From: Acidimicrobiales bacterium
Lineage (GTDB): Bacteria > Actinomycetota > Acidimicrobiia > Acidimicrobiales > SZUA-35
Assembly: GCA_020630065.1 (NCBI GenBank)
Contig: JAHDCC010000008.1
Location: 1 to 64,000 of the forward strand
DNA: 64,000 nt
Reading direction: 5' to 3'
The notes under the pieces are model-generated. The model saw only the letters and a program-made list of their open reading frames with translations, was not told the DNA's origin and searched no databases. The translations under genes and the position numbers were made by a program. Positions within the stretch are counted from its first letter, which is position 1. Each line of letters opens with the position of its first letter. Of this stretch, positions 44,153 to 47,388 are shown in pieces.

Positions 44153-44920
44153 CTAGTCTGTGGCTGCCGCCGCGACTTCGATTCGGTCTTGACGCCATTC
44201 GCGTGCGTTTTCCAATGCCTGCTCGGCGGCGGTAAGGATTTCGTCTGCGCCGAAAGCATGCGCCGGGTAGCAGGCCACACCAGCCCAAACGGTCACTTCA
44301 GGATTGGTTTCGCTGAGCTTGCGTCGGATGCGTTCTACCGTCCAAATAGCGCCATTTTCGGGTGTGTCTTCCAGAAGCGCAGCAAAGTAACCGTTTTTGA
44401 GGCGGCAGGCCGTGTCTGCACCACGAAGCGTTTCGGTGATACTGGGTGCCACCGAAGTCGGGTTAGCTTGCGTTGGGCTGTCATCTGGAAGCCCGTTGAC
44501 GACATCGATGAGAGCGATGGCGACTGGACGTAAATGTCGGCGTGCTGCGGCAACCCGAGAATCAAGCGAGGCTCGAAAGAAACTCTCGCTGAATAGGCCA
44601 GTTTCCGGGTCGGTAAGCGGCTCTTCGTCTTCGAGTGTGCCGGAGGACCGGGTGAGCTTGTCGAGTTCGGCTTGAACTTTCTGTTCGGTGTCTTTAGCTG
44701 CTGCTCGTACGGTCTTGAGTTCTTCCTCGATCACAGACTGGACGGCTTTCTGGCGTACTAGCCGTTGAGCGATCTGTATGCAGGAAACCCCGGCGGCAAG
44801 CGCCAGAACACCTGCTACCACAGCAAATATTGGTCGTTCGGAACCAAATGAAATTCCGCCCGCGACCAAACCCAAAATGCCGGTTATTAAGCCTGGTAAC
44901 GCAACTCTTGGTGTGCTCAT
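44153..44920 (-). CDS. Degenerate GGDEF-domain membrane protein
   Basis: A 255-residue protein with two transmembrane helices (about 8-25 and 30-50), a coiled-coil linker (60-95) and a GGDEF-type domain (about 104-250). The domain start DPETGLF and the IALIDV metal strand are kept, but the signature loop is KNGYF (175-179) instead of GGDEF, so diguanylate cyclase activity is unlikely. It may bind GTP or a partner, or serve as a structural module. The next gene downstream is also a two-helix coiled-coil membrane protein. Confidence 0.75.
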   Translation of the reverse strand: MSTPRVALPGLITGILGLVAGGISFGSERPIFAVVAGVLALAAGVSCIQIAQRLVRQKAVQSVIEEELKTVRAAAKDTEQKVQAELDKLTRSSGTLEDEEPLTDPETGLFSESFFRASLDSRVAAARRHLRPVAIALIDVVNGLPDDSPTQANPTSVAPSITETLRGADTACRLKNGYFAALLEDTPENGAIWTVERIRRKLSETNPEVTVWAGVACYPAHAFGADEILTAAEQALENAREWRQDRIEVAAAATD

Positions 44921-44987: not shown

Positions 44988-45674
44988 TCAACGTTGCGTG
45001 TGTGTTCTGTCTGATTCATCGAAAATAGGTGGAGCGTCTATTGCTTCTTGCAGTAACTGGGAGTAGGTGGCTCGTGGTAGTTCTTGGCCACCTAGACGTT
45101 TGAGGTGGGGCGTGAGCCATTGTACGTCAAGAAGGCTCTCCCGTCTGGTTTTTAGCCGGTTAGTCAGATGTAACAGAGCGACTTTAGATGCGTCAGTCCT
45201 GCGGTGAAACATCGATTCACCAGCAAAAAATGAGCCAATGGCTATTCCGTAAACGCCGCCGGCCAAACCTTGATCGTCCCATACTTCGACGCTGTGAGCC
45301 CACCCAAGCCGATGGAGTTCTAGGTACGCATCTTTGATGTTGGTGTCGATCCATCCGTTCGGGCGTCGGGGATGGGCGCATTCGTCTAGAACTTGTCCGA
45401 ACGCCTCGTTTGATGTGGTGCGAAATCGTCGAGCCGATTTCTTGAGTGAACGACTGACGTGGAATGCTGAAGGGAGGATAACCCCTCGTGGGTCAGGGCT
45501 GAACCAGCCGATCGTGGTTTTGTCGACCGGCATCGGAAAGTACGTGGATCGGTACGCCTCAAGCAGCGTCGCCGGTTTTAGGTCTGCACCGCATGTAATG
45601 AGATCTTTTCGTGGCGGGAGAAGGGCCGGTGACGGAAACTCCCACGCCGAGATAGGTAGTTCGATACGTTCGAT
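44988..45674 (-). CDS. aat: Leucyl/phenylalanyl-tRNA-protein transferase
   Basis: Aat adds Leu or Phe to proteins with N-terminal Arg/Lys, marking them for ClpAP. Family motifs are WFSPDPRGV, ISRS-type HVSRSLKK, GWIDTNIKDAYLELH, GGVYGIAIGSFFAGESMF and LLDVQWLTPHL. The first canonical start in frame is ATG at 45533, but the frame continues upstream with clear family sequence (WEFPSPALLPPR, then CGADLKPATLLEAYRSTYFP) to a TAA at 45686, with no ATG, GTG or TTG. The start shown (ATC at 45674) gives about 228 residues, the normal length, but is a guess; translation may begin at another non-AUG codon or the sequence may contain an error. Confidence 0.85.
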   Translation of the reverse strand: MERIELPISAWEFPSPALLPPRKDLITCGADLKPATLLEAYRSTYFPMPVDKTTIGWFSPDPRGVILPSAFHVSRSLKKSARRFRTTSNEAFGQVLDECAHPRRPNGWIDTNIKDAYLELHRLGWAHSVEVWDDQGLAGGVYGIAIGSFFAGESMFHRRTDASKVALLHLTNRLKTRRESLLDVQWLTPHLKRLGGQELPRATYSQLLQEAIDAPPIFDESDRTHTQR

Positions 45675-45728
45675 CTTCGAATCTTACGTCAACGAAACGC
45701 CGTGTCAAATCTGGTAGACACCCAGAAC

Positions 45729-46085
45729 CTATTCGGCTTCGGTGCTCTCAGGTGACTCGTCGTCGGTGGTTTCGTCTTCGGTGGTTTCGTCTTCGGTGGT
45801 TTCGTCTTCGGCCGAGTCTGACTCCTCTGGTGCAGGGTCATTGGCGACGGTCGGAAGTGGCTGTTCTGGTACTGCAGGTTCTTCGGTAACCACTTCGGTG
45901 GGTTCGCTGTCGGCATCGTCTTGACCGAAAAAGAACCAAAGTCCAAGAGCGGCGACTACCGCCACCGCTATCAAACCGATAATTAGGCCCCTGTCTTTCG
46001 TGAGGTCGCGTTGTTCTTGTTTACGCTGTTCCTCCAGCTTTTGGGCTCGGTTTGCTTTTTGACGTTCTCTTTTTGGTGTACCCAC
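45729..46085 (-). CDS. Small single-pass membrane protein with acidic tail
   Basis: A protein of about 118 residues: a basic N-terminal helix (GTPKRERQKANRAQKLEEQR), one transmembrane helix (LIIGLIAVAVVAALGLWFFF) and an acidic Glu/Asp/Thr/Pro-rich tail with three DETTE repeats. The basic head is the same as in many actinobacterial membrane-bound peptidyl-prolyl isomerases, but no isomerase domain follows, so this may be a truncated relative. The GTG at 46085 is preferred by similarity; a GTG at 46133 is also open. Function unknown. It is divergent from lysC. Confidence 0.6.
   Translation of the reverse strand: MGTPKRERQKANRAQKLEEQRKQEQRDLTKDRGLIIGLIAVAVVAALGLWFFFGQDDADSEPTEVVTEEPAVPEQPLPTVANDPAPEESDSAEDETTEDETTEDETTDDESPESTEAE
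45765..45809 (-). repeat. 15-bp tandem repeat (3 copies)
   Basis: Three perfect copies of GGTGGTTTCGTCTTC encode the DETTE repeats of the acidic tail. Being identical and in frame, they are likely to vary in copy number between strains. Confidence 0.85.
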
Positions 46086-46164
46086 ACTCCAAAATTTATC
46101 AACCCTACGCCCCGGTTTGACAACGTAGGTCACATTAGCTGTTGGGGTCAGGTGTTGGTACCGT

Positions 46165-47388
46165 GTGAGCGTGGCTTTAGTAGTTCAGAAATTTGGAGGA
46201 ACGTCGGTAGCGGATCCAGAACGGATGCGAAACGTGGCCGACCATGTTGCTCGCTGTAGGCGCAGGGGTGACTCTGTTGTCTTAGTTATCTCAGCGATGG
46301 GTAAGGAGACCGACGAGCTGCTCCGAATGGCTGAGCGGGTGTCGTCGACTCGTCCCGGCCGTGAGATGGACATGTTAATCACCGCAGGGGAACGCAAAGC
46401 GGTTGCCCTGCTATGTATGGCGCTAGCCGACCTTGGTGTAGCGGCCCATTCGTTTACCGGTAGTCAAGCCGGTTTTCTGACAGATACGAATCATCGAAAC
46501 GCCCGAATCCTTGAAGTTAACCCCGATCGAATAGCGGATGCTATCGAAGAGGGGATCGTCCCGGTAGTGGCAGGTTCTCAGGGGGTTTCGACCGAACGAG
46601 ACGTGACGTTTCTGGGTCGTGGCGGTTCGGATACGACCGCGGTGGCGTTGGCGAAAGCGCTTGATGCCGACATGTGTGAGCTTTACACCGATGTTTCCGG
46701 CGTCTTTACCTCGGACCCCCGGATTGTTACTGCAGCGACCAAAATCAGTTCGATCACGTTCGATGAGCTTTTGGAGATGACGGCCACCGGTTGTCCCAAG
46801 CCTGCGATGCGGTCAGTCGAAGTTGCACATAGTCATGACGTCGCCCTACATATTCGTTCAGCTTTCACGTGGGAAACAGGAACCCTCGTTACCAATACGG
46901 AGCAAGACATGGAACAGCCAATTATTCGAGCAGTCACACACGACTTGTCAGAGTCAAAGGTGACGGTAGCTAAGGTTCCGGACACCCCTGGTCTTGCTGC
47001 GACTCTGTTTCGAATGCTGGCCGACGAATCCATCGACGTCGACATGATCGTTCAGAACACCTCTGATGCTGGTGTGACCGATATTTCCTTCACCGTGCCT
47101 TCCGACCAGCTGAGTGCCGTAACCGCTGTTTTAGAAGATGATGCGATCAAACAGTTGGGTGCCGAATCCATTCGCACCGATGACTCGATTGGTCGGGTCT
47201 CCGTCGTTGGTGCAGGAATGAAGTCGAACCCGGGTGTTGCTGCCACGGTTTTCGAAGTTTTGGCAGCTCACGACATCAATATCCAGATGATCTCGACGTC
47301 GGCGATACGAATAAGTTGTGTGATCGATGCCCAACAATGTGAAGACGCGGTGCAGCTACTCCACACCGCTATGGGGCTAGACGGCTAA
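46165..47388 (+). CDS. lysC: Aspartate kinase
   Basis: A 407-residue aspartokinase that phosphorylates aspartate in the first step to lysine, threonine, methionine and diaminopimelate. KFGGTSVADPERM is the N-terminal kinase motif, GRGGSDTTAVALA the substrate/ATP region, and two ACT domains fill residues about 265-400, expected to bind lysine and/or threonine for feedback control. The start is GTG. The asd gene follows after 84 bp, as in other actinobacteria, although no internal beta-subunit start was examined. Confidence 0.93.
   Translation: MSVALVVQKFGGTSVADPERMRNVADHVARCRRRGDSVVLVISAMGKETDELLRMAERVSSTRPGREMDMLITAGERKAVALLCMALADLGVAAHSFTGSQAGFLTDTNHRNARILEVNPDRIADAIEEGIVPVVAGSQGVSTERDVTFLGRGGSDTTAVALAKALDADMCELYTDVSGVFTSDPRIVTAATKISSITFDELLEMTATGCPKPAMRSVEVAHSHDVALHIRSAFTWETGTLVTNTEQDMEQPIIRAVTHDLSESKVTVAKVPDTPGLAATLFRMLADESIDVDMIVQNTSDAGVTDISFTVPSDQLSAVTAVLEDDAIKQLGAESIRTDDSIGRVSVVGAGMKSNPGVAATVFEVLAAHDINIQMISTSAIRISCVIDAQQCEDAVQLLHTAMGLDG

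Follow-up and report, generated by a model that had tools for sequence, protein, structure and literature searches.

How is a gene translated when the part of its frame that encodes a conserved N-terminus offers no AUG, GUG or UUG? The aat gene of the window, i.e. the whole stretch of 64,000 nucleotides analysed here, from an uncultured Acidimicrobiia-type bacterium, raises this question for leucyl/phenylalanyl-tRNA--protein transferase (Aat), which marks proteins for degradation by adding Leu or Phe to them and whose gene starts at UUG in E. coli. On the minus strand, the frame is open from a TAA at 45686-45684 down to the gene's stop at 44988. The TAA is followed by GAT TCG AAG, ATC (45674), GAA CGT, ATC (45665), GAA CTA CCT, ATC (45653), TCG GCG and TGG (45644), and so on to ATG at 45533; both the sequence and its translation were read, and no ATG, GTG or TTG occurs in frame between the TAA and this ATG, exactly as the original prediction had it. 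Text searches of the literature for unusual aat starts gave nothing useful.

Conservation of the N-terminus and choice of the start codon

The identity of the gene, present as a single copy in the genome, is supported by matches to TIGR00667 (190.2 bits, curated cut-off 143.55) and PF03588 (4e-62; 209.1, cut-off 22.7; profile positions 1-170 of 171), and by alignment of residues 9/11-209 to the E. coli L/F-transferase structures, which covers the conserved regions GADL, GESMF and LxDxQ. The first positions of PF03588 match from residue 34, whereas ATG 45533 corresponds to residue 48, which makes the latter implausible as a functional start. Moreover, residues 11-47, all of them upstream of this ATG, show a mean identity of 51% to 141 relatives versus 54% for the rest of the protein, indicating that the N-terminal stretch is constrained like the remainder. 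Profile, structure alignments and identity thus agree with the earlier claim that about 46 Aat-like residues precede ATG 45533, back to the TAA. That Aat would start at this ATG, the first start in a mechanical listing of open reading frames, is very improbable given that the conserved N-terminus would be lost, and the same low probability covers a start at an upstream TTG followed by a frameshift: TTG 45708 belongs to the -35 element described below and the shift would be unexplained, while after TTG 45692 a single codon, ACG, precedes the TAA.

Table 1. Features of the aat locus (positions in the window)
Feature	Position	Strand	Remarks
aat, leucyl/phenylalanyl-tRNA--protein transferase	44988..45674	-	228 aa if read from ATC 45674; TIGR00667 and PF03588
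Proposed start codon ATC	45672..45674	-	6 nt past the -10 element; ten codons before the conserved Trp (-10); A is the predicted transcription start
Conserved Aat N-terminus, 47 codons, above the first standard start	45534..45674	-	From translation; 51% versus 54% identity
First in-frame ATG, internal, unlikely start	45531..45533	-	Conserved N-terminus lies upstream of it
-35 element TTGACA (6/6)	45703..45708	-	Promoter scan
-10 element TAAGAT	45681..45686	-	Separated from the -35 by 16 nt; includes the in-frame stop TAA at which the aat frame opens

In many relatives, aat starts with ATG, GTG or TTG located 8 to 10 codons before the conserved Trp of the W-x-F-P motif (-8 to -10), an interval in which ATC 45674 is the sole start-like codon of the window's aat. 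The original prediction had proposed ATC at 45674 or 45662; the former is indeed an ATC and the best candidate, but 45662 opens a GAA codon. Neither of the two other in-frame ATC codons above ATG 45533 was retained, as ATC 45665 (-7) corresponds to an Ile/Val codon within the gene in relatives and ATC 45653 falls just before the conserved Trp. No Shine-Dalgarno-like core was found before ATC 45674. Non-standard initiation of aat is well supported, and its start codon is probably AUC 45674.

Start codons of aat and infC among relatives

Within the family, 9 of 37 genomes carry an aat without ATG, GTG or TTG in the open frame within 30 codons above the Trp, whereas none of 30 aspartokinase genes of the same family lacks a near standard start (Fisher p = 0.003), a control that is fair rather than identical since its motif lies about 5 codons into the gene, closer to the start than that of aat. 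ATC or ATT occupies position -9 or -10 in five of the nine: ATC at -10 in the window's own genome (G000), ATT at -10 in G007 (which has TAGCGT at -12 and a weak -35), ATC at -9 in G010 and G024, and ATC at -10, one codon past an upstream TGA, in G013. The other four cases are weak. The aat of G011 has CTG in a frame that is open far upstream, and no codon of this kind lies nearby in G003, G031 and G032: the first has a GTG that overlaps the upstream stop yet is out of frame, and may contain a frame error; in the second, a TGA lies within the gene and the N-terminus does not resemble that of its own genus; the third is open far upstream. Several of the nine could thus reflect frame errors or starts located far upstream, which leaves G000, G007, G013 and the sister genus g11 to carry the case. 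In the latter, ATC at -9 is kept in four species (G010, G019, G024 and G028), with Shine-Dalgarno-like cores of the GGAG, GAGG or AAGG type 6-8 nt above it; two of the four have no standard start, and in the other two a TTG lies further up. Among 112 distinct aat loci from outside the family, 4 lack a standard start, one of them being a copy of the G032 case. In G004 (locus L192), aat apparently starts at a GTG only two codons ahead of the motif; with TAAACT at -12, it would be leaderless and have a shortened N-terminus.

An error at base 45672, whether of sequencing, of assembly or a strain variant, would convert the case into an ordinary leaderless ATG gene. ATC differs from ATG by a single base, the promoter has the ideal spacing for such a gene, the draft genome consists of 81 contigs, and its genus is represented by this one genome. 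The original prediction had named a standard start at the corresponding codon of relatives as evidence against a non-standard start, and this is partly borne out, as many relatives have ATG or GTG there; however, ATC or ATT is found independently at this position in other genera of the family, which makes a one-off error less likely, and the 30 aspartokinase starts of the same genomes show no such defect. We consider an error unlikely, and the absence of a normal start is probably real, as the pattern is repeated in relatives.

It is more improbable still that a genuine change of ATG to ATC has left aat almost silent and that the gene is being lost. The rule established for mycobacterial leaderless mRNAs predicts little translation from such a codon (PMC4633059), and about a third of the genomes of the order yield no aat match. 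Against this, the frame is intact over 228 codons with its conserved residues kept, ATC is maintained across the g11 species, and ClpS, which serves the N-degron route as its adaptor, is encoded in the genome.

The gene infC, which the original prediction had cited as precedent for a rare start codon, provides a positive control in the lineage itself. In the window's own genome it reads TGA ACA GTC ATA GCT AGG, beginning at ATA without a standard start, and all 30 family loci (L268-L297) likewise lack one, with ATA, or ATC in genus g6, at the conserved place; non-canonical initiation is thus very probably at work in this lineage. As in infC, whose start is AUU, AUA or AUC, the window's aat is a conserved gene without AUG, GUG or UUG, with a probable start codon of the AUH type that IF3 rejects. 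Unlike aat, which has no Shine-Dalgarno sequence and whose codon sits at the predicted +1, infC of the family has a Shine-Dalgarno-like leader, and its autoregulation by its own product is inapplicable to Aat. In 22 of 29 readable loci, infC is preceded by a six-codon open reading frame (MRGDRQ* type) whose TAG stop shares bases with the ATA start as ATAG, and which looks like a coupled leader; the infC of the window's own genome lies on G000:C63, near 167917.

A predicted promoter adjoining the candidate codon

A promoter that would place +1 on ATC 45674 is new here and was not seen in the original prediction. The spacing between TAAGAT and A 45674 is 6 nt, and the +1 predicted from it falls on the first base of the codon, as in leaderless genes, even though the codon at this 5' end is ATC and not AUG or GUG. 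In 5.6 kb, TTGACA-16-TAAGAT is the better of two promoter-like matches where shuffled sequences give 3.1, so that the number of matches is meaningless and it is strength and spacing that stand out. The combination TTGACA-(15-19)-TANNNT is rare: when both strands of 1.28 Mb of the genome were scanned, it occurred 22 times among 2.55 million positions. In most leaderless-type genes of the genome, the -35 is worse than that of aat, and the -10 slightly better.

Leaderless transcription is common in this genome, as TANNNT peaks upstream of 756 predicted genes at -12 (43), -13 (26) and -14 (22), against about 6 per position from -30 to -16. Likewise, of 124 open reading frames whose opening stop forms part of TARNNT, 34 have ATG or GTG at precisely +12, versus 42 of 629 others. 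No genome-wide enrichment of ATC or ATT at the leaderless position was detected. The idea of a genome-wide class of leaderless ATC/ATT starts was therefore dropped, making aat an exception rather than a member of a large class.

A less probable reading is that ATC is a real start codon on a main translated mRNA that is leadered, resulting from upstream read-through or another promoter, the promoter at 45708-45681 being minor or starting transcription elsewhere. A same-strand upstream open reading frame ends 54 nt before ATC with no terminator-like site listed in between, aat of g11 and G013 looks leadered or coupled, and non-canonical starts on leadered mRNAs are documented (PMC4633059, PMC13009471). 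However, the lack of a Shine-Dalgarno sequence before ATC 45674 argues against it, as does the aat promoter, which few other matches in the sampled genome equal in strength. This reading and the one that we prefer are not mutually exclusive, as the AUC start is common to both.

Proposed initiation at AUC and the supply of Aat

On balance, we favor with some reserve the reading in which aat is translated, weakly and in a sparing dose, from AUC 45674-45672 on a leaderless or near-leaderless mRNA. The strong sigma-A-type promoter would start the mRNA at, or within 1-2 bases of, A 45674, and the main transcript would then be leaderless or nearly so. The AUC would act as a near-cognate start, leading to a 228-residue Aat beginning with fMet-ERIELPISAWEFPSP, and the predicted N-terminal peptide would be (M)ERIELPISAWEFPSPALLPPR or its Met-less form. 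AUU, AUC and AUA are rare bacterial starts discriminated against by IF3 (PMC4611024); as AUC belongs to this rejected set, weak initiation is to be expected and the enzyme would be made sparingly, with an output that is perhaps higher when IF3 is scarce.

Weak start codons of this kind have precedents. In S. aureus grown in poor medium, the output of cvfC1 (AUU) and of ccpN and citZ (AUA) is about 10% of that obtained with AUG (PMC13009471), and pcnB of E. coli starts at AUU, as mentioned in PMC13009471 with reference to Binns and Masters (2002). In these genes the weak codon limits output (PMC13009471), as proposed here for aat; they are, however, other genes, and those of S. aureus depend on extended Shine-Dalgarno sequences. 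The aat of g11 shares with that of the window an ATC close to the conserved Trp (at -9) and, in two of four species, the lack of any standard start, but it is led by Shine-Dalgarno-like sequences rather than adjacent to a promoter, and the two other species also have the TTG further upstream. Mycobacteria, which belong to the same phylum judging by relatives, have leaderless mRNAs with the -10 about 12 nt before the start codon, the layout that is common in the aat genome. Leaderless translation of reporters in M. smegmatis nevertheless required AUG or GUG at the 5' end, with ATC as the presumed negative control (PMC4633059), whereas the aat codon is AUC. A leaderless aat mRNA beginning with AUC is thus a prediction from sequence that conflicts with the mycobacterial rule. 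The conflict would be resolved if the lineage differs from mycobacteria in this respect, if translation proceeds from a leadered mRNA, if the base is an error, or if aat is almost silent.

If correct, leaderless translation from a 5' AUC would break the AUG/GUG-only rule of leaderless initiation, and the placement of a promoter directly on the codon offers a direct test of an event, leaderless translation from a codon that IF3 rejects, that the mycobacterial work deems impossible. We only tentatively extend this proposal to the lineage, where 5'-AUC leaderless mRNAs would be translated in Acidimicrobiia and aat would be a recurrent, perhaps IF3-sensitive, second user of AUH starts besides infC. 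A recurrent AUC or AUU start on an N-degron transferase suggests that its dose is held low at initiation. Gene callers restricted to ATG, GTG and TTG would truncate proteins such as an AUC-started Aat.

Several observations concern the neighboring genes. Aspartokinase, located at 46165-47388 on the plus strand of the window and at loci L238-L266 in the family, mostly has TANNNT 12-14 nt before a GTG start, which suggests a leaderless gene in many of the family's genomes; for the window's copy, a GTG at -5 relative to the motif suits such a layout better than GTG 46165. The open reading frame upstream of aat (45729-46133, minus strand) encodes 134 aa with one likely membrane segment and an acidic repeat tail, and gave no Pfam match. 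In several relatives, the gene at this place instead appears to be peptidyl-prolyl isomerase-like or of the acyl-CoA dehydrogenase type. Finally, the open reading frame that follows aat (44153-44920, minus strand) encodes a partial GGDEF domain matching profile positions 61-158 of 161.
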